From Halohasta litchfieldiae (GTDB lineage Archaea > Halobacteriota > Halobacteria > Halobacteriales > Haloferacaceae), in assembly GCF_002788215.1 (NCBI RefSeq), contig NZ_CP024845.1:806001-870000 (forward strand): a stretch of 64,000 bases of DNA, in the 5' to 3' direction. Made by a program: the position numbers and the translations under genes. Each line of letters begins with the position of its first letter. The first letter of the stretch is position 1. This document shows, in pieces, positions 47,936 to 62,079 of the stretch. The notes beneath the pieces were generated by a model that was given only the letters and a program-made list of their open reading frames with translations, did not search any database and was not told the origin of the DNA.

Positions 47936-50900
47936 TTAGCACTCCGACCAGCCACACGACTCGCAGGTCTTGCAGCCTTCCGAGAAGTACAGCGACATGC
48001 TGCCACATTCAGGGCATTCGGGCGACTCACCGGCGGCCAGCAGATCGTCGGTGGCGTCGGTCGTCTCGGTAGACTCTGGCTGTGCGGCCGGTCCGGGTGT
48101 CGCACCGTTGGCGGTCGTGTCGTCGGAGACTGCGCCGCCGTCGGTCTCGTGAGCCGCTGCGGGTTCGTCGTCAGCAAGCTCCGAGAGGTTCTGCTGTTTC
48201 GGATACGGGTTGTCGATCTCGCCAGCGAGATAGCGACGCAGGGCCGTTCCGATGGCGTCCGGGATGGAGTTGATCTGCTCGCCTTTGTCCCAAGCGACCT
48301 TCGGACTCCGAATCCCGTTGAGTTCGTCGGCGATCTCCTCGGGGTCGACGCCCGACCGAAGCGCCGTCGAGATCGTCTTGGCGAGTGCCTCGGTAAAGGA
48401 GGCCGTAAAGCCGCCGGAGTTGCCGATATTGGCAAACAGTTCGAACGGCTGTCCGTTTTCGTCCTCGTTGATGTTGACGTAGACCTTGCCGTAGCCCGTG
48501 TCAATGCGCTGGGTTACACCGTAGAGGACATCTGGTCGTGGCCGTTTCTTGCCGAGGCCCTCTTGGTTCCGCTCGGGCTGGGTGAACAGCTGATCGAGTT
48601 CCGCGCCGATCTGGGCCCGTACTTCGTCGTTGTCGAGGAAGTCCTCGATACCGCCGAAGACCGCCTCGATCTGGGCGGTGATCTGCTCGGCTGCCTCGCC
48701 GTCGTCGGCGAACTCGGTGTTTTTGGCTCGCGTCGTCAGCACCTGTTTCGAGCGCGTGCCGTCTCGGTAGACGGTGACACCCTTGCCACCGTTGTTGTAG
48801 ATGTAGCGGTAGACCTCGTCCATATCCTCCTTGGTCGCACTGTTCGGGAAGTTACAGGTCTTCGAGATCGCCGAGTCGACGCCGGCCTGACAGGCACACT
48901 GGACGCTGGCGTGGTCCTTACCCGACAGATCCGAGGTGACGACGAACAGTTCACCGATGGCCTTCGGGACGGTTTCGAGGCCGTCGACGCCGTCGAACTC
49001 GTTGGTTGCCATCTGGTCTTGGGCCTCTTGTTTGACCTCGTCGATGTCGATGTCGTTGGCCTCCAGCACGCGGAGGAAGTAGTCATCGAACTCGACGAGC
49101 ATTTCGTCGCCCTGGACGTCGTCGGAGACGTTCTTGTAGTAGGCGACGTTGAAGATCGGCTCACAGCCACCCGTCGTGTTGCCGATCATCGATGTCGTGC
49201 CGGTCGGCGCAATCGTGGTGGTGTTGTGGTTCCGGATTGGGAAGCCCTCGGCCCACTCGTCGGCGTCCTCGCCGGTGTGGTGTTCGAACCACTCGCGGTA
49301 GTCGGTCGGGTTGGCGTACTTCGAATCCTCGTAGTCGGCAAACGGCCCACGCTCTTGGGCCAGTTCGTGAGAGGCCCACTTCGACTCGTGGTTGATGTGG
49401 GTCATCAGCTCGCGGGCAACCGCGTTCCCTTCGTCCGAGCCGTAGCGAATCCCAAGCTGGATGTAGAGCTGAGCCAGTCCCATGACACCAAGCCCGATCT
49501 TCCGCATTTCGCGGACCTTCTGTTCGATCTTGTCGACCGGGAAGTCGGACATCGTGACGACGTTTTCGAGGAAACGCGTTCCGGACTCAATTCTCCGGTT
49601 GAACGCATCCATGTCGACGGCCTCCTGAATGAACGCCTCGGCCGCGGCGTTGAGGTCACTGTAGTCGTCGCCGTGGTTGTCGTACCAGACACGCCAGTCA
49701 GGCGCTTCCTTGTCAGCTAGTGTTGAAAGGTTGATGTGGCCGAGGTTACAGGCCTCGTACTCTTCGAGCGGCTGTTCGCCGCAGGGGTTGGTAGCCAGAA
49801 TTTCGTGGTCCGGGTGCTCGTCGACGTCGAAGGAGTGTTCCTTGTTGACGCGTTCGAGGTAGATGATTCCGGGTTCGCCGTTCTCGTGGGCACCGTTGAC
49901 GATGTGTTCCCAGAGTTCTTCGGCGGGAATCGAAAGCTCCTCGCCGACTTCGACGTGCTCGCCGAGGTCGTAGAGGTCGTAGATCTCCTTCGTTTCCGGC
50001 GTTGCGATGTGCGGCTCTTCGGTTCGGGGGTTGGTGAAGGTGAACTCCTCTTCGTTGAACAGCGCGTCCATGAAGTCGTCGGTGACGCCGACAGAAATGT
50101 TGAAGTTCGACAGGTGGCCCTCGACTGCGTTGCGGAGGTGTTTGGGGACTTTCCCCTCCTCGTCGATCAGTTCGCGGGCCTCTTCGAGCGCATCTGCAAA
50201 GGAGTTATGCGTAAAGTCGTCGGGGTCGTTGAGTCGCAGCGAGTGGGCCAGCGAGACGTCCTTGTTCTTCGAGTGGATGAACTGGATGACGTCAGGATGC
50301 GAAACGCGCATGACGCCCATCTGGGCACCGCGCCGCGCACCACCCTGGGCGATGGTTTCGCACATCTGGTCGTAGGTTCGCATGAAGGTGATCGGGCCGG
50401 AGGCGATACCGCCAGTCGACCCGACAGAGTCGCCGTAGGGACGGAGTTTCCAGAAGGCATACCCCATGCCACCGCCGGACTGGAAGACCTCGGCGGCCTC
50501 CTTTGCGGTCTGGTGGATATCGGAGATGTCGTCGCCCGGGGAGTCGACGAAACAGGCCGACAGCTGCTGGAGTTCGTCGCCAGCGTTCATCAGCGTCGGT
50601 GAGTTCGGCATAAAGGAGAGCTGGGTCATCAGATCCTCGAACTCGTCGGCAACGTCTTCGACGTGGCTCCGGACCTCGTCGGGGAGGTCAGGAACGATAC
50701 TCTCGTAGGAGAACTTGTTGACGTTGTAGACCGACAGCTCGGTTTCGGCCTGATCGTCGGCGGTCGTGCCGGTACCGAAGACTTCCTCAGCGAGTTCGTC
50801 GCGGCGAGGGTGGTCGGGTTTGATCTGCTGTGGCGTGACCGTGATTTCGAGATCCAGATTGTCGGCCTCGAAGACGGCCTCTGCGAGAGCGACGTTCTGG

Positions 50901-51091
50901 GCGACACGGGTGAACAGCTCCTCTTGGCTTTCGTTCGGGTTCCCCTGGGCATCCTTTCGGAGATACCGAGCGGGGAGGATGTTGTTGTAGGCATTGCTGG
51001 TGAGACGGTCCTCGATGGTCTCACCCTCAGTGCGTTTGATCGGCATTTCGAGTTCGTCGGCAGAGAGCTCCGGTCGGCTCACGCAGACCAC
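47936..51091 (-). CDS. nrdJ: Adenosylcobalamin-dependent ribonucleotide reductase, class II
   Basis: NrdJ makes deoxyribonucleotides with a B12-derived radical, with no oxygen requirement. Of 1051 residues, the active-site region has CFVDSPGDD and GGARRGAQMGV near 180-260, the NPCGEQPLEEYEACNLGHINLS thiyl-radical segment near 435, and APTGTTSMIGNTTGG near 635. The C-terminal tail ends in CPECG, CKTCESCGWSEC, a zinc-ribbon or redox-exchange segment. The start is a GTG. A second GTG three codons in overlaps the stop of a short upstream reading frame. B12 dependence links it to the cbiX and btu genes. Confidence 0.94.
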   Translation of the reverse strand: MVCVSRPELSADELEMPIKRTEGETIEDRLTSNAYNNILPARYLRKDAQGNPNESQEELFTRVAQNVALAEAVFEADNLDLEITVTPQQIKPDHPRRDELAEEVFGTGTTADDQAETELSVYNVNKFSYESIVPDLPDEVRSHVEDVADEFEDLMTQLSFMPNSPTLMNAGDELQQLSACFVDSPGDDISDIHQTAKEAAEVFQSGGGMGYAFWKLRPYGDSVGSTGGIASGPITFMRTYDQMCETIAQGGARRGAQMGVMRVSHPDVIQFIHSKNKDVSLAHSLRLNDPDDFTHNSFADALEEARELIDEEGKVPKHLRNAVEGHLSNFNISVGVTDDFMDALFNEEEFTFTNPRTEEPHIATPETKEIYDLYDLGEHVEVGEELSIPAEELWEHIVNGAHENGEPGIIYLERVNKEHSFDVDEHPDHEILATNPCGEQPLEEYEACNLGHINLSTLADKEAPDWRVWYDNHGDDYSDLNAAAEAFIQEAVDMDAFNRRIESGTRFLENVVTMSDFPVDKIEQKVREMRKIGLGVMGLAQLYIQLGIRYGSDEGNAVARELMTHINHESKWASHELAQERGPFADYEDSKYANPTDYREWFEHHTGEDADEWAEGFPIRNHNTTTIAPTGTTSMIGNTTGGCEPIFNVAYYKNVSDDVQGDEMLVEFDDYFLRVLEANDIDIDEVKQEAQDQMATNEFDGVDGLETVPKAIGELFVVTSDLSGKDHASVQCACQAGVDSAISKTCNFPNSATKEDMDEVYRYIYNNGGKGVTVYRDGTRSKQVLTTRAKNTEFADDGEAAEQITAQIEAVFGGIEDFLDNDEVRAQIGAELDQLFTQPERNQEGLGKKRPRPDVLYGVTQRIDTGYGKVYVNINEDENGQPFELFANIGNSGGFTASFTEALAKTISTALRSGVDPEEIADELNGIRSPKVAWDKGEQINSIPDAIGTALRRYLAGEIDNPYPKQQNLSELADDEPAAAHETDGGAVSDDTTANGATPGPAAQPESTETTDATDDLLAAGESPECPECGSMSLYFSEGCKTCESCGWSEC

Positions 51092-51141
51092 TCCATGGCG
51101 TCTACGCCGCGCTGGGCGGCACTTCCAGTCGATGTACTCAT
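51079..51141 (-). CDS. Possible 20-residue leader peptide of nrdJ
   Basis: A short frame starts MSTSTGSAAQRGVDAMEWSA and its TGA overlaps a GTG start codon of nrdJ (GTGA). The geometry allows translational coupling or a regulatory leader. There is no sequence proof of expression. Confidence 0.35.
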   Translation of the reverse strand: MSTSTGSAAQRGVDAMEWSA

Positions 51142-51459
51142 ATTCTGAACACTCATTTGGGACGGGAATGTTGTACCAACGGAACCCTCATAACAGCTTT
51201 GGTTGGTGTATTGGAAACGGGTGTGTCATTCGCCAACGCGGTCGCTGGCGGGTAATGCGAAATGACCATCACGTCGACAGTTGTCGACTTCCGGTCGTTG
51301 GTTTCGCTACGGTTGGGACGAGCATAAGCGTATCCGAAGCGAAGTGAAACTAAAATCTCACTGAACCTGCTCCAGATGGCCACAGGTCGGTGTCGACTGG
51401 AGATAGACGGAGCTCTCCGGTGGTGAAAGTAGTGTTATTGATACATCACCATTCCATAC

Positions 51460-51469
51460 GTTTATTTTC
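51460..51469 (+). promoter_or_regulatory. TATA box of the small membrane gene
   Basis: gtttattttc is centred about 26 bases before ATG 51491. The 320 bases between this and the nrdJ leader hold no other gene that I can support. Confidence 0.5.
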
Positions 51470-51490
51470 GCTCACCGATTGGCACCCAGT

Positions 51491-51686
51491 ATGCTACTGG
51501 ATGGACTCCCGGCTACCCTCGCACAGGCAGGCCTCCTCGGGACGGAACTCGGACAGCTACTGATCGTCCTCGTTGGGATGTTGGTTGTCCTCGTCGTTGG
51601 CCGTCTCTTCTTGAAAATCGCGTGGCGACTCGTGACCATCGGCGTGGTTGTCGTCGGCGCAGCACTGGTACTGACGCAGTTCGGAC

Positions 51687-51694
<8 letters not shown>
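51491..51694 (+). CDS. Small membrane protein, 67 residues
   Basis: The protein starts MLLDGLPATLAQAGLLG and has two hydrophobic helices (about residues 20-40 and 46-66). A well-placed TATA box supports expression. It overlaps the end of trpG by eight bases on the opposite strand. Function unknown. Confidence 0.65.
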
Positions 51695-52336
<642 letters not shown>

Positions 52337-52340
<4 letters not shown>

Positions 52341-53944
52341 TGCTCTGCCTCCTGTGGCTCAGTTTCGATCTGCTCGATGGCGGCCAACACGCCGTCCATC
52401 TTCTGTTCGGTCTCCTCGTACTCGGCGGTCGGATCACTGTCGGCAACCAGCCCCGCTCCTGCTTGGACCGTGATTCGATCCTCCCCACCGCTGTGGTCGA
52501 TGGTGGCGGTTCGGATGACGATAGCGAACTCGGCGTCGCCGCTCCACGAGAAATAGCCGACGCCGCCACCATACACTCCTCTAGGCGTGCGTTCGAGGTC
52601 GTCGATGATCTCCATCGCTCTGACCTTCGGCGCACCGGTGAGAGTCCCCGCCGGAAACGTGACGCGCGCCGCATCGAAGACGTCGTACTCATCGGCCATT
52701 CGGCCAGTCACGGTCGACTCGATGTGCTGGACGTGGCTGTATTTGAGGACGCTCATGAACTCCTCGACGGAGACAGAACCGGATTCCGAAACCCGGCGCA
52801 CGTCGTTGCGCGCGAGGTCGACTAACATCGTGTGCTCGGCGCGCTCTTTGCCATCGGCCAACATCTCACCGGCCAGCCTGCGATCTTCGACCGGGCTGGT
52901 GCCGCGCGCGCAGGTGCCCGCAATCGGGTTCGAAACGATCTCTCGATCCTGAACTGAAACTAGGGTTTCGGGACTCGCACCCACAATCGAGAGATCGTCG
53001 TGGGCCATGAGATACATGTACGGCGAGGGGTTGACATCGCGAAGGGCCTCGTAGAGGCCAATCGGGTCAATCTCTCCCGTTAGTTCCCGCTTCCGAGAGA
53101 TCACGCCCTGATAAATATCACCATCGAGGACGTGCTGTTTGGCAGTCCGGACCGCCTCTTCGTACTCGTCCTGCGGACCTGCGGTCTCGCCAGTTCGGTG
53201 GAAGCCACCCGGTTCGGGCTCGCTGGCTTCAGAGAGCGTTTGGGCGATGTCGACGGCCTCGCTCCGTAGCTCGTCGTACCGCTGGCCGGGGTCGTCGCTC
53301 CCATCCAACACGGGTGTAAACACCAACTTGACGGTTCCCTCGGCGTCGTCGAAGACGACCGTTCGAGTCGTGAGTGCAAACTGCGCGTCGGGGAGTTCGC
53401 TGTCGGGGCGGTCCAGTCCCACGTCCTCTAAGACGAGGTCGTAGACGGTTTCATGAGCGAGAAAGCCGACGAGTCCGCCGGAAAGTTGTCGACGGGTCGT
53501 CTCCGGGAATCCCAGCCGTTCAATTGAGGGGAGACCGCGCCGGAGTCGGTCCAGTATGTCGCCGTCGGTTGCGGCATCGCCTTTGTAGGCCTCGACCAGC
53601 AGATCGGCCGCCGGACCAAGACGGTCGACTTCGGTGCGGTCGGGGTAGACCGAGACAATGGCTTCGGGGTCGTAGCCCACAAACGAGTAGCGGGCGTGGC
53701 GTTCAGCATCCGTCTCGGGTGCGAACGCGCCGTCCGGGTCCGATGAGGCGGTCTTTTCGGCGCTTTCCAGCAAGAAGTTGTACGGGCTCTGGTCGGCCAG
53801 CGCGGCGTAGGTCGCCAGCGGCGAGGTGTCGACGTCAAGCGTGACTGCAACGCGAGCGACGACCGGCGCATCCGGTTTGCCGATCAGGTCGACGAACGCC
53901 TCGCGGTCTCGATCAAAGGTCAGTAGTTCGGAACCGGAACTCAC
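52337..53944 (-). CDS. trpE: Anthranilate synthase component I
   Basis: TrpE converts chorismate and ammonia to anthranilate. The 535 residues contain the LLES segment (PYNFLLESAEKT) that forms the tryptophan feedback site in other TrpE proteins, and the chorismate-binding core with GTCARGTSPVEDRRLAGEML near 345. TLTGAPKVRAMEIIDDLE and GVYGGGVGYFSWSGD follow near 450-475. The start is a GTG whose bases overlap the trpF stop (GTGA). Feedback inhibition by tryptophan is expected. Confidence 0.94.
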
Positions 53945-54588
53945 ACCGGCACCTCCAGCTCTCGGCCTGCGTTCTGAACAAAAGTCGCCAGCGCGGTGTG
54001 GTCTTTCTGTCCCGGTTCGCGTTCGACACCGGAGGCGACGTCGACCGCAAACGGTGCGGCGACTCGCACCGCCTCGGCGACGTTGTCGGGGGTCAGGCCA
54101 CCCGCCAGCACGACTGGTGAGGTGAGGGTTTCGGCGAGGTCGGCGGTCGACTCCCAGTCGTGGGTTTCGCCCGTTCCGCCAGCCCCATCCTCGGTTGTCG
54201 AGTCGACCAAAATCGCGTCGGCCGCGGCGTCGAGTTCGTGGGCACGTTCGGTGTCGGTGTAGTCGATGGCTGGAATGACCTTGATCCCGGTCTCGGCCCG
54301 AATGTAGCCGATATCGTCGCTGTCGAACTCGCCGTGGAGTTGGATCGCGTCGGGGCGGATCGCTCGGATCAGGTCGACCGCGTGGTCGGCGTCTTCGGGC
54401 ATCGTCACGAGGGTTGCGGTGACGAATGGTGGCACCTCGGCGACGAGTTCGGCGGCCGTGCCACGGTCGACCTCCCGTGGGGTGTCGACCGAGACCGAGG
54501 AGATAATCCCCACGGCATCAGCACCGGCTTCGATTGCCGCTCTGAGGTCGGCGGGATCGGTGAGTCCACAGATCTTGACGCGGGCCAT
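53941..54588 (-). CDS. trpF: Phosphoribosylanthranilate isomerase
   Basis: TrpF rearranges phosphoribosylanthranilate in tryptophan synthesis. The 215 residues start MARVKICGLTDPADLRAAIEAGADAVGII, with the catalytic Cys in KICG. QLHGEF near 95 and VVLAGGLTPDNVAEAV near 160, with DVASGVEREPGQKD near 180, complete the TIM-barrel phosphate-binding site. Its ATG shares one base with the trpD stop. Confidence 0.95.
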   Translation of the reverse strand: MARVKICGLTDPADLRAAIEAGADAVGIISSVSVDTPREVDRGTAAELVAEVPPFVTATLVTMPEDADHAVDLIRAIRPDAIQLHGEFDSDDIGYIRAETGIKVIPAIDYTDTERAHELDAAADAILVDSTTEDGAGGTGETHDWESTADLAETLTSPVVLAGGLTPDNVAEAVRVAAPFAVDVASGVEREPGQKDHTALATFVQNAGRELEVPV

Positions 54589-55613
54589 TAGGCCTCCACG
54601 TCCGTCTCGGTCTCGGCGGGTTCGCCGCGGAGGGCGGCCAGTTTGGCTGCTGCACCGCCGTTGTCGATTGCCTCGGCGGCGGCTTTGACACCCTCAGTCA
54701 GCGACTCGGCTTCGCCTGCAATGTAGATGGCTGCGCCAGCGTTGGCGAGAATGAGATCGCGTTTGGGGCCCTGTTCCTCACCGATGAGGATGGCTTCGAG
54801 ATCGGCAGCGTTTGCTTCGGGAGTGCCGCCAGCGACGTCTTCGATTGGGGCCGAATCGAGGCCCAGATCGTCGGCCGTGAGCGTGTACTCGGTGATCTCC
54901 TCGCCGTCGACTTCAGCCACCGTAGTCTCGTCATGGATACCGATCTCGTCCATCCCGGATCCGTGGACGACGAGTGCGCGGTCGACTGGCATCTTGGTGA
55001 GTGCGCGAGCGATGATGGGGACGAGTTCGGGGCTATAGACACCGAGAATTTGGGCGTCGGCTCCCGCGGGGTTGGTGAGTGGGCCGAGCACGTTGAAGAT
55101 GGTCCGCATTTCGAGTTCCTTGCGCGGGCCGATGACGGCTTTCATCGCGGGGTGGAAAACGGGCGCGAGCATGAACCCGATACCGTCGGCCTCGATGGCG
55201 TCCTGCACGGCGGGTGGTTCGGCGTCGACCGTAACCCCGGCGACTTCGAGGACGTCAGCGCTGCCCGATGACGAGGAGACGGAGTAGTTGCCGTGTTTGG
55301 CGATTGGAACGCCCGCGCCCGCGGCGACGATGGCGCTGGTTGTCGAGACGTTGATCGTGTCGTAGTCGTCGCCACCGGTGCCGCAGGTGTCGACCAGCGG
55401 CGTGCGGTCGGGCTCGATGGTCCGGGCGGCATCGCGCATCCCCTGTGCGAAGCCGGCGATCTCAGTTTCAGTTTCGCCTTTTGCTCTGAGGGCGGTCAGC
55501 AGCGCGCCGATCTGGGCCTCGGTGGCGTTCTCGAAGACGAGCCGCGCCGCATCGCGGGCCTCGTCCAGTGTCAAGTCCTCGCCGTCGGTCACTCGCTGTA
55601 TGTAATCCTGCAT
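54588..55613 (-). CDS. trpD: Anthranilate phosphoribosyltransferase
   Basis: TrpD joins anthranilate to PRPP. The 341 residues carry the PRPP-binding VDTCGTGGDDYDTINVSTTSA near residue 75 (motif GTGGD), KHGNYSVSSSSGSADVLE near 105 and FLLAPVFHPAMK-like FMLAPVFHPAMKAVIGPRKELEMRTIFN near 150-175. It is the first gene of a four-gene coupled operon (trpDFEG). trpC, trpB and trpA are elsewhere. Two TGTACA boxes lie just upstream. Confidence 0.95.
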   Translation of the reverse strand: MQDYIQRVTDGEDLTLDEARDAARLVFENATEAQIGALLTALRAKGETETEIAGFAQGMRDAARTIEPDRTPLVDTCGTGGDDYDTINVSTTSAIVAAGAGVPIAKHGNYSVSSSSGSADVLEVAGVTVDAEPPAVQDAIEADGIGFMLAPVFHPAMKAVIGPRKELEMRTIFNVLGPLTNPAGADAQILGVYSPELVPIIARALTKMPVDRALVVHGSGMDEIGIHDETTVAEVDGEEITEYTLTADDLGLDSAPIEDVAGGTPEANAADLEAILIGEEQGPKRDLILANAGAAIYIAGEAESLTEGVKAAAEAIDNGGAAAKLAALRGEPAETETDVEA

Positions 55614-55646
55614 TGTTAGTCACCAGTGTATGAGTTCGTCTTGTGA

Positions 55647-55662
55647 TGTACAACTCTGTACA
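55647..55662. promoter_or_regulatory. Paired TGTACA boxes upstream of trpD
   Basis: Two TGTACA hexamers are separated by four bases (tgtaca-actc-tgtaca), 34-49 bases before the trpD ATG. TGTACA is the TRP-box consensus bound by the TrpY repressor in Methanothermobacter (established knowledge). Here the pair would overlap the core promoter, so tryptophan-responsive repression is a reasonable inference. Confidence 0.6.
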
Positions 55663-55864
55663 TTGGTAAAACGTTGTCGGCGTTGTGAGTGTTTGTGAAA
55701 CGGTGGCAGTCGACATGACTTAGAGGGCTGTGAGTCGGGTGTGGAGGTAGGTTTGTCGACGTGGTGTGGCACCATGGCAGAAACCACCAGCCGAAGCGGA
55801 GATTCGAAACCTTCAATTATCTCCCCCGGATACGATAAGTTGCGTCAGACAGCGACACCAGATC

Positions 55865-55939
55865 GGGTTTGTGGTCTAGTCTGGTTATGACACCTCCTTG
55901 ACATGGAGGAGGCCGGCAGTTCAAATCTGCCCAAACCCA
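55865..55939 (+). tRNA. tRNA-Val (anticodon GAC)
   Basis: The acceptor stem GGGTTTG/CAAACCC, anticodon stem CCTCC/GGAGG with loop TTGACAT, and T arm GGCAG/CTGCC with TTCAAAT are all intact, giving a 75-base tRNA with anticodon GAC. The discriminator is A and no CCA is encoded. No intron is visible. Confidence 0.95.
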
Positions 55940-56659
55940 TTCTCTACTTTCTCGCAACGACGAGCGACGCGAGATCGCTTGCGATCTCGAAGCGAACGGC
56001 GAAGCCGTGAGCTATGCGAGCGTAGTGAGCAGAGTGAGGCAGCTATTGGCGTTGGTGTTGTTCAACCAGTCCGAGAGTGAAGTCGACTGCTTCGAGGACA
56101 GTCCTGCTGAGCCGGGTTCTCATCAGCAAAAATAAGAGGTAACTGATACCCAAATCTGTGAGGGCCACAACTCATTACCGGCAAGCAACTACCTACTACT
56201 ACAAGATCATCAGCGGGTGCGGCCCCCACCGTTGATGTTCTTACCCTCCCCCTGCCACACCAGTTTCCCCCATTGATGTGGTATCTGAACTGGAAGCCCC
56301 CGATCCAGTTCACGAAGTTAGTTCCCACACACGGTGTGTTACCGTCGTTTTCCCTACTGACGAGGCTTTCTCCCCGGAATGCGAAGAGAAAGGAACTCCA
56401 CCAGTACCCCTCGAAACACTGGTCACGGCCCCCACAGTGACCAGCTTTTGCAGAGACCTCCGCTTTGGATCGCTCCCCTTTGTCTCTGCAGATCAGTGTC
56501 TAGAGTACAACCAGAAAGGAACTCATATTCACACAAATTATCAATAAATCAGACCGTGTGTTTCACCACTACTGTAGGCGGTCAGCTCCAAAACTGAACA
56601 GTCGACAGCAAAGCACCATGGACAAAGCGTCTCGGCCGGAGCGAGCAGCCCGACGCCAG
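55940..56659. other. Gene-free region with a series of hairpins
   Basis: No convincing protein gene lies between the tRNA-Val gene and the DUF7289 gene. The region instead holds at least eight inverted repeats in line, of which those at 55970-55989, 56286-56312, 56419-56444 and 56449-56490 have 8-9 perfect pairs. Three loops contain GCCCCC (plus strand). It could be a structured RNA on either strand, the 3' region of a transcript, or a remnant of an element inserted at the tRNA. RNase P and SRP RNA signature sequences were looked for and not found. Confidence 0.55.
55970..56008. repeat. Two hairpin repeats just after tRNA-Val
   Basis: CGAGATCGC and GCGATCTCG face each other across two bases, followed by ACGGC-GAA-GCCGT. 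Such hairpin-rich filler is common between haloarchaeal genes and could end the tRNA transcript. Confidence 0.55.
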
Positions 56660-58171
56660 TCAGTTGAGGTCGACCCGAACGGTGTTGTGACTGACGTGGA
56701 GGTAGGTAAGCAGGTCGGCTGCTCCAGTGAGTTCGATGGTGGTGCCTGCGAGATCCTCGTCGTAGTCGATACCGAAACTCCCGCCGCCGTCAAGACTGTT
56801 GGCGACGAGCGCCCCATTGATCTGGCCGTTCCCCGTCGCTTCGACAGCAGCATCAGGAGCGTAGATGACCGCATCGAAATTGATGGTACCGGTCCCAGAG
56901 CTACTATCGAGGAATCCATCGGCGACGTAAAACACGTTTCGCTCGGCTTCAGGTTCCGAACTCGTAGTCCCAACCTCGGCGTTGCCTGTCGCGCGCAACG
57001 AGCCGTTGATGTAGTAGCTCACGCCGTTGTCGGTTGTATCAGTGACGCGGATATCGTGGTTTTGGAGGTCGACCGTTCCGTCGACGACGATTGTGACATC
57101 ACCGCCGCTGGTATCGATTTTGGTATCGTTAGTCAGCGTGAGATCACCATCGTAAAAATAGGTCCCATTGGTGAGTGTACACCCATCATCGTTGAGACAA
57201 CCACTCCCAGAACCGCGTGCGTCGCTAACTTGCTGTTCGATGAGGGGCTTGGCTGAGCGATGGGCGACGTTATCCTCGACGGAGCCATCGATATCCGCAC
57301 TGTTTCCGTTCCCGTTTCCGTTTCCATTCCCCGGATTGTACTCAGACTGTGTCGAGACGGCAGTATCGAGCTGTATCTCGTCGGGGACAGTGAGCCGCGA
57401 CACCACAGTCTCGTTTGCGTGGTAGATCAGTGTCTCGCCGTCAGTCCGCTGGTTGAAATACTCGTACCAGCCTTCGTAATACGCACTCCGAATCTTCACT
57501 TCGATAGTGCCGTTATCTAGCGGCGTCGACACGTTCGGGACCGCGTCAGTGGCTACACCAACGGGAGTGATTCGACCGGTAGGCTGGCCGCCAACCGTAC
57601 CCTCACCGGTGACTTGAATGATCGGGAACGTGAGCGTCGTCCCGCGGTAGTAGTACTCCGGTGGCGAGGCAAGACGGCTAGTGCCGTCCTGTTTCGACCA
57701 GATCCCACCGCCCTGATAGGCGACCGCACGGCTCTCGCCGCTGTAGACAATCGCACCCAAATCGGAGTCGAACAGCTCCGTCCGAGAGTCGTTTGTCACG
57801 TTGGAAATCGTGATACGCCCCGCATCCGGCTGCACTGACACAGACCCCTCCTGCATCAGTCCGAGGCTGAACCGCTGGGAGTCCGCATCACCGAGCGCAA
57901 CAAGGCTGAGTTTCGAACTCAGATGCGACATCCCGTTTTCGACGTTGTTGGCTTCGGCCGTCGAGACGAGGTCCCCGAGTGCGACCCCGCCCAGCGCGAC
58001 CGACGTCCCGATCACCGCCATCGAGAGGCCGAGAATCAACACGGTTCCCACCAGTTCGGACTGGCCACGATCCGACCGCCGGGAGCGCCCTCGACCACGT
58101 GGAAAATCCCGCTCCGTCGACCCATCGCTGGCCATCGCCGCGAGGCAACTGGCGAGTCGACGGGATATCAT
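56660..58171 (-). CDS. Pilin-like surface protein (DUF7289-like)
   Basis: This protein of about 503 residues has a type IV pilin-like N-terminus: a basic stretch, then DRGQSELVGTVLILGLSMAVIG, where a prepilin peptidase or membrane anchoring would act. The body is a long beta-rich domain with many Asn sequons. It includes a GNGNGNGNGN run, CLNDDGC (a possible disulfide) and a right-handed beta-helix-like part from about residue 350 (TNGTYFYDGDLTLTNDTKIDTSGGDVTIV). I used MISRRLASCLAA as start; MASDGSTERD 12 codons in is possible. Substrate handling by pili is inferred. Confidence 0.78.
   Translation of the reverse strand: MISRRLASCLAAMASDGSTERDFPRGRGRSRRSDRGQSELVGTVLILGLSMAVIGTSVALGGVALGDLVSTAEANNVENGMSHLSSKLSLVALGDADSQRFSLGLMQEGSVSVQPDAGRITISNVTNDSRTELFDSDLGAIVYSGESRAVAYQGGGIWSKQDGTSRLASPPEYYYRGTTLTFPIIQVTGEGTVGGQPTGRITPVGVATDAVPNVSTPLDNGTIEVKIRSAYYEGWYEYFNQRTDGETLIYHANETVVSRLTVPDEIQLDTAVSTQSEYNPGNGNGNGNGNSADIDGSVEDNVAHRSAKPLIEQQVSDARGSGSGCLNDDGCTLTNGTYFYDGDLTLTNDTKIDTSGGDVTIVVDGTVDLQNHDIRVTDTTDNGVSYYINGSLRATGNAEVGTTSSEPEAERNVFYVADGFLDSSSGTGTINFDAVIYAPDAAVEATGNGQINGALVANSLDGGGSFGIDYDEDLAGTTIELTGAADLLTYLHVSHNTVRVDLN
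57303..57332 (-). repeat. Hexanucleotide repeat encoding a Gly-Asn run
   Basis: Five near-identical six-base units (GGAAAC-type on the minus strand) encode GNGNGNGNGN. Slippage would add or remove Gly-Asn pairs without breaking the frame. Confidence 0.8.
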
Positions 58172-58326
58172 AACGACCGATACAGTCTCGATCCTGATAA
58201 ACACTCTCACGAACCTATCGATACTGAGAATGGACGGTGGGAGCCGGGGGCGGTATATCGAAATCAAAGACAGACACAGAAATTGCCAATATGTTGATTA
58301 GTTTGGCTGTGGTATTGCAACTGGAT

Positions 58327-58593
58327 ATGGCCGACAAAACGCACAATGAGACCACACTGTCGCGGGCAGATGCCGCGGAGTATCTTCGGTCGCTGGGAGC
58401 GACGCTCGCCGGCGAGTCGGGGTCCTGGACCGTGCCGGTCGGGAACAAACGTGTCGAGATCCAGCCCGATGACGAGATCACCGTGGAGACAACCGTCGAC
58501 GAGCGCTCGCGGATGCTCGGCGACGATATCACGTCGACAACCGTCGAGTTGAGATGGAAAGAAAGCGGCGAGTCGGCCGAAGGGGGTGACTGA
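58327..58593 (+). CDS. Amphi-Trp domain protein
   Basis: This 88-residue protein starts MADKTHNETTLSRADAAEYLRSLGATLAGESGSWTVPVGNKRVEIQPDDEITVET across two short blocks, matching the small amphi-Trp family of haloarchaea and bacteria. It is soluble with an acidic C-terminus. Function unknown. It is followed closely by the next membrane gene. Confidence 0.82.
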   Translation: MADKTHNETTLSRADAAEYLRSLGATLAGESGSWTVPVGNKRVEIQPDDEITVETTVDERSRMLGDDITSTTVELRWKESGESAEGGD

Positions 58594-58594
58594 G

Positions 58595-58987
58595 ATGGTA
58601 CTCCAAGCAGAAGCGATGGTGCTCCAAGCAGAGCTCACTGGCTCGCTGATCGTCCTGCTCGTCAATCTGGTCATCGGGACGATTGCGATCTACGCCGGTG
58701 CCCGGCTCATCATTGACGCCGATACCGCAATCGGTCGGGCGGCCGTAACCGCCCTTCTCGGGGCGCTTGCGTGGGCTCTCGTGAGCTTCTTTTTCGGGTT
58801 CATTCCGATCTTGGGACCGTTGCTCACGCTCGTGGCGTGGATCGGCATCATCAACTGGCAGTACCCCGGCGGCTGGGGCACCGCCGCTGGAATCGGCCTG
58901 ATCGCGTGGTTGGTGGCCGTGGCCACACTGGTCGTCCTCGGGAGCCTCGGGGTCGTCGGCTTCGAGGCACTCGGCGTGCCGACGTAG
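58595..58987 (+). CDS. Membrane protein with four to five helices
   Basis: This 130-residue protein has hydrophobic segments at about residues 12-30, 45-65, 68-88 and 98-125. The gene starts two bases after the amphi-Trp stop; a GTG three codons upstream is an alternative start within the overlap. The first 14 residues are a near-repeat (MVLQAEA-MVLQAEL) from a 21-base tandem duplication. No family is recognised. Confidence 0.68.
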   Translation: MVLQAEAMVLQAELTGSLIVLLVNLVIGTIAIYAGARLIIDADTAIGRAAVTALLGALAWALVSFFFGFIPILGPLLTLVAWIGIINWQYPGGWGTAAGIGLIAWLVAVATLVVLGSLGVVGFEALGVPT

Positions 58988-59016
58988 AAAGCCGCAACCG
59001 GCTTCGCCCGACGGTC

Positions 59017-60843
59017 TCACTCAACGTGGGTTTCGAGAAAGTCGACGACCGCGCGGTAGGCCTCAATCCGGTTTTCGAGTTTGGTAATGCCGTGGCCCTC
59101 GTCCTCGAAGACGAGTTTGTCGACCGGAACACCCTGCTTGCGGGCCTTCTCGACGATCTGTTCGGCCTCGTCGACCGGAACCCGTGGATCGTTCGCCCCA
59201 TGTAGGACGAACAGCGGCGCGTCGATTGCTTCGACCCTGTTGATCGGCGAAATAGATTCGAGGAACTCCCGATCCGCCGCAAGCGAACCGTACTCGGCCT
59301 CCCGGAGCTCGCGCCGCCAGTCGCCCGTGTTTTCGAGGAACGTCACGAAGTTGGCGATGCCGACGATGTCGACACCGGCGGCCCACAGCTCGGGATACTC
59401 GGTCATCGCCGCCAGTACCATGAAGCCGCCGTATGAGCCACCCATTGCGACGATCCGGTCGGGGTCGACCGCGGGATGATCGTGAAGCCACTCGACGGCA
59501 GCTTTGATGTCAGCCACCGAATCCATCCGGTTTTCGACGTCGTCGAGCGACGCATACGATTTGCCGTAGCCCGATGACCCCCGAACGTTGGGTTCGAACA
59601 CCGCGTAGCCGTGGGCCAGTAGGTACTGTTTAACGCTGTTGAACGAGGGTCGACGCTGGGATTCTGGACCGCCGTGGATGTCGACGATGACTGGTGTCTC
59701 GCCCGAGCCGGTGTCCGTATTGGGCAGCGAGAAGAACGCCGGAATATCTCGTCCGTCGAACGTCGGATAGTGGACTAACTCAGATTCGACAAAGGTGTCT
59801 CTGGGTATCCCCGCGGTCGGCGCATCGGTCCAGCGTTCGGTCTCGCCGGACTTGATGTCGACGACGTGAAAGTTCGCGTTCTCCGTGTCGCCCGTGACGG
59901 TGACCGCAAACTGGTCGCCCTCCGGGCCAAAACTGACGCCGCCGGAGACAGCCTCCGGCAGGTCCGGATCGGGAAACGGATCGATCCGATCGGGAGCAAC
60001 GATCTCGCCGGTGGTCCACTCGGTGTAGCCCTCGACGTTGCGACCGTAGACGATTCGACGGCTGTCCTCGTCGACCGCCAGTCCGCCGACGTTCCACTCG
60101 TCGCCGGTGTGATGCTCTCGGCGTTCGGTCTCGACGACGGAGAACTCCCCGGAGTCGACGGCGAGGCGTTCGAGTCGAAGCGTGTCGGTGTTTCGGTCGG
60201 TGACCAAGTAGATGTTCTCGCCATCCGGTCCCCAACTGGGACTGCTGTAGCGAACCGACCCCTCGTGGGGCGCCAGGTGATCAATCTCTCCCGAGTCGAT
60301 ATCCAAGACGTACAGGTCCTGATCGTAGCCGGAGTAGGCTTGTTGGACGATGAGTCGACTGTCGTCGGGACTCCAGCCGGCGAGGCTGAGCCAGCCGTCG
60401 CCCTCGAAGATCAACTCGGCCTCGTCGCCGACCGCGTCACGGTCCTGTATATACACGTCGAACACCGACTCCTCGCGGCGGTTCGACGTGAAGGCGAACT
60501 GCTCGCCGTCGTGACTCCAGCCGCCCCATCGGTGTTTGGCGTCGGGATGCTGGGTTAGGTCGACGATCTGGCCGTCGGTGAGATCGAGCCGGTGGAACTG
60601 GGTGCGTTCGTTGCCGCCGACGTCTTTGCCGAATATGATCTCCTGTCGTTCGGGCGAGTAGGAGCCGAAGGTGACCCGTTCCTCGAAGAACGTGTGTTGG
60701 TCGGGCCAGCCACGAGGCGAGGTAAGGCTCCAGAGCTGTGGGGTGCCGGTCGTGTTGAGCCGGAAGCAGAGCCGGTCGCCCTCCGGGCCGAAGCTCGCCC
60801 CGAAGGCGCTGCGGACGTTGAGATAGCGTTCGATGTCGTACAC
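59017..60843 (-). CDS. S9 family prolyl oligopeptidase-like peptidase
   Basis: This 608-residue serine peptidase has an N-terminal beta-propeller of WD-like repeats (residues 1-350) and a C-terminal alpha/beta-hydrolase domain. The catalytic Ser is in AMGGSYGGFMV near residue 465, Asp in HGANDPRVPVDEAE near 550 and His in EDEGHGITKLE near 583. No signal peptide is seen, so it should be cytoplasmic and cut oligopeptides. Acylaminoacyl-peptidase activity is an alternative. Confidence 0.9.
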   Translation of the reverse strand: MYDIERYLNVRSAFGASFGPEGDRLCFRLNTTGTPQLWSLTSPRGWPDQHTFFEERVTFGSYSPERQEIIFGKDVGGNERTQFHRLDLTDGQIVDLTQHPDAKHRWGGWSHDGEQFAFTSNRREESVFDVYIQDRDAVGDEAELIFEGDGWLSLAGWSPDDSRLIVQQAYSGYDQDLYVLDIDSGEIDHLAPHEGSVRYSSPSWGPDGENIYLVTDRNTDTLRLERLAVDSGEFSVVETERREHHTGDEWNVGGLAVDEDSRRIVYGRNVEGYTEWTTGEIVAPDRIDPFPDPDLPEAVSGGVSFGPEGDQFAVTVTGDTENANFHVVDIKSGETERWTDAPTAGIPRDTFVESELVHYPTFDGRDIPAFFSLPNTDTGSGETPVIVDIHGGPESQRRPSFNSVKQYLLAHGYAVFEPNVRGSSGYGKSYASLDDVENRMDSVADIKAAVEWLHDHPAVDPDRIVAMGGSYGGFMVLAAMTEYPELWAAGVDIVGIANFVTFLENTGDWRRELREAEYGSLAADREFLESISPINRVEAIDAPLFVLHGANDPRVPVDEAEQIVEKARKQGVPVDKLVFEDEGHGITKLENRIEAYRAVVDFLETHVE

Positions 60844-60925
60844 AGGCGTTTGTTGGGGGCTGTCGACAAACCGTTTCGGGTCGTATCGGGGGGGTTTTTA
60901 CTGCCCGCATCCCTCGGGCAGGACA

Positions 60926-61999
60926 ATGCGTGTCGCGTTTGTCTCGATGTATACGCTTCACACGCGTGACACCTCTGTGACCCGCCGACTGGCACGACTG
61001 TCGGGCCTGCTGGCCGACCGGGGCCACGACGTCCACGTGCTCTGTGGCCGGTGGTGGGACGGCTCACATCCGACGTTCGAACAGGACGACATCACCTATC
61101 GAGCGGTCGACGGGGATTTCTCCTCGCGCCTGTTCGTCTCCAAACTCCCGTTTGCACTCCGCAGAACCAAGCCGGATATCGTCCACGTTCCGAACAGCCC
61201 GGTCGGCCACGGGCGGGCGGCGAAGGCCGCCTGCCGGCTGCTCCGCGTCCCGCTGGTCGTCGACTGGTGGGCCGACCAAATCGACGAATCCGACGGCGAC
61301 TACCGAAAACTCGCCCGCAGCGCGGACGTGATCGTCGCCCCCTCCGAGACCGTCAAAACAATCGTCCGCGAACACGGTGGACCGGAGGACGCCATCTCGG
61401 TGATCCCACCGAGTATCGATTTCGACCTGGTTGAGTCAAGCGACGTCGACAACCGGTTCGACTACGTCTACAGCCGTCGACTCGACGCCGATGCCAACGT
61501 TGAGACCTTTCTGCTCGCGCTGGCCGAACTCCGCACCCGCGAGTGGCGCGCCGCCGTCATCGGCTCCGGCCCAGCATTGGAAGGGGCTAAACGCACCGCC
61601 AAAGACCTCCGAATCGGAGACCGAATTGCCTTCCTCGGCGAACTCCCCGAGGCAGAACGCGTCCCGATTTTTAAAGGCGCGCAGGTGTTCGCACAGACGG
61701 CCACTCACGAGCCGTTTGCGGCTGAACTGCTCTGGGGGCTGGCCTGTGGCTGTGTCGGCATCTCCGAGTATCAGGTCGACTCGGCGGCCCACGAACTAAT
61801 CGAACACAAATCCCGACTCCCCGGAACCCGCGGCAGTCTGGTGTCGACGCCCCAAGAACTGGCCGACGAAATCATCGCCGCCGAAATGATGGACCACGAG
61901 ACGGTCAATCCCAACTACGAGCAGTACGACCACGACCCGATCATCGACCAGTATCTCGAGTGTTACGAGGCCGCGATAGAAGACTACGGGTTCTTTTAA
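60926..61999 (+). CDS. Glycosyltransferase family 4
   Basis: This 357-residue GT-B enzyme starts MRVAFVSMYTLHTRDTSVTRRLARLSGLLADRGHDVHVL. The N-terminal acceptor domain leads into the donor domain with DVIVAPSETVKTIVREHGG near 140 and YSRRLDADANVETFLLALAEL near 190. The C-terminal E-x7-E region near AATHEPFAAELLWGLACG (about 265) is typical of retaining GT4 enzymes. It likely adds sugars to surface glycans or lipids. The donor and acceptor are unknown. Confidence 0.88.
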   Translation: MRVAFVSMYTLHTRDTSVTRRLARLSGLLADRGHDVHVLCGRWWDGSHPTFEQDDITYRAVDGDFSSRLFVSKLPFALRRTKPDIVHVPNSPVGHGRAAKAACRLLRVPLVVDWWADQIDESDGDYRKLARSADVIVAPSETVKTIVREHGGPEDAISVIPPSIDFDLVESSDVDNRFDYVYSRRLDADANVETFLLALAELRTREWRAAVIGSGPALEGAKRTAKDLRIGDRIAFLGELPEAERVPIFKGAQVFAQTATHEPFAAELLWGLACGCVGISEYQVDSAAHELIEHKSRLPGTRGSLVSTPQELADEIIAAEMMDHETVNPNYEQYDHDPIIDQYLECYEAAIEDYGFF

Positions 62000-62079
62000 C
62001 GGGTAATCGGTCTTTACCGGGTGACTCGATCTGGTAGTCGATGGCTACGCGCTTCTCTCGAAGCGTATTCAGCCGAACC

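Follow-up and report, generated by a model that had tools for sequence, protein, structure and literature searches.

A cluster of hairpins with C-run loops in Halohasta litchfieldiae and its two diverged relatives within the genus

Hairpins with C runs in their loops are known from Staphylococcus aureus, where RNAIII and related sRNAs carry C-rich (UCCC) hairpin loops (PMC2837412). In haloarchaea, the origin recognition boxes carry a halophile G-string, and oriC1 is enhanced by a G-rich inverted repeat (PMC3936714). The array described here, from Halohasta litchfieldiae, resembles RNAIII in having several hairpins with C runs in their loops, but it is known from DNA sequence, is likened to RNAIII by loop design alone and lies outside the RNAIII family. 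Moreover, its host is a haloarchaeon, and a Shine-Dalgarno sequence is not strictly required in haloarchaeal translation (PMC8241225). If the proposed element acts as an RNA, its nearest functional analogue would be found among sRNAs with C-rich loops, RNAIII being one of them. With the origin boxes and the oriC1 repeat it shares G runs and inverted repeats in a haloarchaeon (PMC3936714), but the boxes at cdc6 genes of Halohasta differ from it in sequence, and in the array the G run is the spacer of each inverted repeat. Like dispersed intergenic palindromes of the REP-like or MITE-like kind, it is noncoding and occurs as several diverged copies in varied contexts. It was not assigned to them, as it has three copies only, several different stems per unit and no defined ends that we could identify.

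The window, i.e., the whole stretch of 64,000 nucleotides that was analysed, covers positions 806001-870000 of a single 3.33-Mb contig. The array lies at 56203-56492 of the window, between tRNA-Val (GAC; 55865-55939, plus strand; detected by ARAGORN and Rfam) and a convergent DUF7289/DUF7305 gene (56663-58219, minus strand), and consists of six stems of 7-11 bp. In hairpin H3 (56208-56237), CATCAGCGG pairs with CCGTTGATG over 9 bp, one of them G-T, around the loop GTGCGGCCCCCA. A linker with CCCCC at 56248-56252 separates it from H2 (56255-56281; CCACACCA / TGATGTGG; 7 of 8 positions paired), which has CCCCC in its loop and is the best conserved part. H1 (56286-56312) has a stem of 9 bp (TGAACTGGA / TCCAGTTCA) and the loop AGCCCCCGA. 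The other hairpins are found at 56366-56392 (CTTTCTC / GAGAAAG; 7 bp; loop starting with CCC), 56419-56444 (CTGGTCAC / GTGACCAG; 8 bp; loop GGCCCCCACA) and 56447-56492 (TTTGCAGAGAC / GTCTCTGCAGA; 11 bp with one G-T; a 24-nt loop ending in CTCCCCTTT). The stems differ from one hairpin to another while the loop type stays the same: at least CCCC on the plus strand, read as a G run on the minus strand, was present in five of the six loops.

An earlier note on this DNA had drawn one array over 55940-56560. Among the repeats that it listed, those at 55970, 56209, 56286, 56366, 56419 and 56449 were recovered as stems of at least 7 bp, but those at 55996, 56106 and 56138, as read from the letters, were weak (4-6 bp); the stem at 56255-56281 was missing from its list. 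The stem at 56286 has 9 bp instead of the 8 that it gave. GCCCCC was indeed found in three loops (at 56209, 56286 and 56419), and C-run loops are commoner than had been said, since CCCCC or CCCC occurs also at 56255 and 56449. A separate feature (55959-56020) accounts for the repeats at 55970 and 55996; it is made up of a 9-bp hairpin (55970-55989) and a dispersed haloarchaeal palindromic motif, GCGAACGGCGAAGCCGTGAGC (55992-56012). The hairpin at 55996 is this motif, which is scattered across haloarchaeal families; of 20 related genomes, 8 contain it with at most one mismatch (reversed control, 0). This feature is distinct from the C-run array, and the earlier finding merged two things. It may be noted that at the tRNA-Val-like loci L013-L015 the matches extend toward the same palindromic motif.

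When the region 56200-56495 was subjected to 300 dinucleotide shuffles, the shuffled sequences had a mean of 0.8 stems (maximum 3) against the six observed, and a mean of 0.12 CCCC loops (maximum 2) against the five observed, in agreement with the earlier claim that the hairpins are too many for chance. With a loop-centred descriptor applied to the other strand, the count was 4, a value not attained in any of 3000 shuffles, which averaged 0.33. The same test was carried out at each of the three copies of the array (the window copy and two relatives, L017 and L020), and the result was 0 of 3000 in every case. In about 1.28 Mb of Halohasta DNA, sampled as stretches, at least three inverted repeats with G-run loops within 160 nt were found only at these three copies and in one coding gene (L270), where the cluster sits inside a long coding frame that is cytochrome oxidase subunit-like by eye. 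Genome-wide, the enrichment of G-run loops was weak at most.

L017, first found as a weak match, lies in Halohasta litorea R30 (contig NZ_JANHDJ010000012.1), and through it L020 was reached, a second copy within the genome of the window. L017 and L020 match at 75% over 142 nt; between L017 and the window array the figure is 78%, over 60 nt. All three copies, taken in the G orientation, have the order H1, H2, G-run linker, H3. Hairpins homologous to H3 occur in L017 and L020, both of which also have a C/G run at the place matching the linker and retain hairpins with C/G-run loops. The H1 stem of the window is wholly unlike theirs, and its homology is one of position alone. The copies have diverged by indels and several stem mismatches, and their contexts vary. 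Near L017 there is a tnpB-like gene, identified by eye, as well as a tyrosine recombinase matching Pfam Phage_integrase. The context of L020 includes an ArdC-like gene and, at a distance of 1.2 kb, an orc1/cdc6 gene. Further copies of the L017-type recombinase were without the array.

The core common to the three copies (56205-56285, minus strand) was built into a covariance model (R1) and searched against 167 genomes of the family and 391 of the class. No further copy was accepted, and only three true copies were present among the matches inspected; in one run the inspection was mostly of matches at E 0.01 or below. The lower-scoring matches that were read were coding-like, several resembling methyl-accepting proteins and one the tail of GlmM. 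Neither the window array nor that of L017, used as a DNA query, had a match among plasmids and phages. Exact patterns run over viral and genome collections gave H. litorea as the sole accepted match, matches in three bacterial genomes being judged by organism alone. Rfam, run over 55940-56660, returned the tRNA alone at gathering score and no other match even at E<=1. The array family, so far as seen, is confined to three places in the genus Halohasta.

The distance from tRNA-Val to the next gene is ~720 nt in the window compared with ~330 and ~110 nt in two related genomes, in which the DUF7289/DUF7305 gene adjoins tRNA-Val by synteny. In a third relative of the same genus, an integrase-bearing insertion follows directly after the same tRNA-Val (L101; G002:C19:375500-395400). 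The order of its genes, which code for secreted and membrane proteins and include an ATPase-like gene, suggests a provirus, and its DNA gave no match among phage records. The shorter gaps and this insertion agree with the earlier suggestion that the array is what an element left behind at the tRNA, but no att site was found, and the L017 and L020 copies have no tRNA gene within ~9 kb. A search for flanking copies of the tRNA 3′ end gave no att-site trace around the array; that end occurs as a single copy in the window and in the genome. No integrase was recognised by eye among the window ORFs at 50000-62000. With neither a duplicated tRNA 3′ end nor a recognised integrase, the array was not classed as the remnant of a tRNA-integrated element. 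The window array showed no homology above shuffles to the tRNA-Val gap of H. litorea. That gap (L011, ~1758-1783) has a perfect 9-bp hairpin of its own (GCATACTAG / CTAGTATGC, loop AGGGGAAG), and near it CCGTA-GCCCCCATTT-TACGG; the L011 hairpins are not homologous to the window array.

The possibility of an undescribed structured RNA, raised in the earlier note, was examined by folding and covariation. The strand with C loops (plus in the window) folded better than shuffles in the three copies, with z of -3.8, -5.8 and -4.8, compared with -1.3, -4.8 and -2.0 for the opposite strand, the C strand being favoured partly because of promiscuous pairing of G runs. The plus strand of the window folded as DNA gave z -4.7. 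In the covariation test, with three sequences only, two pairs had changed on both sides, and 51 of 500 shuffles scored as high; covariation is thus only suggestive. A test on the placement of the stem substitutions gave P 0.52 and 0.14. By hand count, the non-Watson-Crick stem pairs on the G-loop strand were 5 G-T and 9 A-C, with no clear strand preference. A promoter and terminator scan of bacterial type, applied to this archaeal host, found nothing of note. A structured RNA is possible: the folding and the retained C/G-run-loop hairpins fit it, but the double changes are not significant against shuffles, and from the fold, mismatch and covariation results the RNA and DNA readings both stand.

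Our preferred reading, to which we give a probability of about 0.4, is a noncoding multi-hairpin element that probably spread with mobile DNA and whose C-run loops would serve as repeated binding sites, most likely in a plus-strand RNA. The array would offer a landing site several times over, each time with a stem that keeps its loop open and a C/G run that is recognised; the active form would most likely be RNA from the strand with C-run loops. The reading is supported by the excess over shuffles and over the Halohasta sample, by the homologous copies, by the different stems but like loops of the hairpins inside the window, and by the lower z of the C-loop strand in each copy. Probable distribution by mobile DNA is suggested by the contexts: the integrase and tnpB-like gene at L017, the orc1/cdc6 and ArdC-like genes at L020, and the tRNA that bears an insertion in a relative. 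Counted against it are the small number of sequences, with neither covariation nor substitution placement significant, the empty promoter and terminator scan, the array-free copies of the L017-type integrase, the lack of a clear strand preference in the mismatches, and the part of the C-strand advantage that G-run pairing contributes.

Not far behind the plus-strand RNA element stands a reading as DNA, in which the array would be a control site of a mobile element; taken by itself this is somewhat doubtful. The array would then belong to a plasmid or integrative element and control replication, partition or recombination, its inverted repeats with G-run spacers being bound as duplex or extruding to form cruciforms. 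In the window the copy may be a relic. The copies near an orc1/cdc6 gene and an integrase, the G-strings and G-rich inverted repeat of haloarchaeal origins (PMC3936714), the mismatches without strand bias and the fold as DNA all point this way. However, the cdc6 gene near L020 is accompanied by a separate repeated box that lacks the array sequence, boxes beside other cdc6 genes look different, no cdc6 was seen near the window copy, and the stems vary between hairpins, unlike iterated protein sites. An ORB origin was rejected, as no cdc6 gene was seen by the window copy and the box at L020 is a different one. The genome of the window, one 3.3-Mb chromosome, has ~13 orc1/cdc6 genes above the family cut-off, several with distinct G-run repeats alongside, which suggests many integrated replicons.

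Decay of mobile-element DNA, with hairpins that are now functionless and a pattern inherited from an ancestor, would account for the diverged copies with their indels, mismatched stems and variable contexts, and for the shorter tRNA-Val gap of relatives. We consider it unlikely, as several perfect 8-9 bp stems are left in the window, including hairpins absent from the relatives, and the whole array is in excess over shuffles. That the hairpins are a by-product of coding sequence is less probable by far. The L020 copy does lie inside an open frame of 145 aa, with a stop that overlaps the ATG following it, and locally this frame is open in L017 and in the window too. But no convincing homologue was found in 167 genomes besides the L017 stretch, and plasmids and Pfam gave none. 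By codon position, the substitutions separating L017 from L020 fall 4/10/10, the third not being favoured, and the indels between them shift the frame; coding was hence rejected as the cause of conservation. The orphan 145-aa frame (L024, 8905-9342, minus strand) belongs to no known family and overlaps the beginning of another open frame, of 152 aa, that lies upstream of cdc6. A chance cluster, in a C-rich stretch that was picked by eye, is the least probable account: it is contradicted by the shuffles at each copy, by the ~1.28-Mb background and by homologous arrays at two other loci.

For the multi-hairpin element, a bolder version is a long shot: a new archaeal class of multi-hairpin RNA on mobile DNA, in which the C5 loops on different stems would be nearly the same and would pair with G-rich targets or bind them, the RNA serving as a multivalent regulator or sponge in a haloarchaeal cytoplasm of very high potassium, or in which the G5 loops of the opposite strand would be joined as a quadruplex. 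At present the array is a well-delimited curiosity limited to one genus. If transcribed, it would represent an archaeal RNA family without an Rfam match and of simple repeated design, with different stems and the same loop; if it acts as DNA, it would point to a kind of control site in the mobile elements of haloarchaea that has gone unrecognised.
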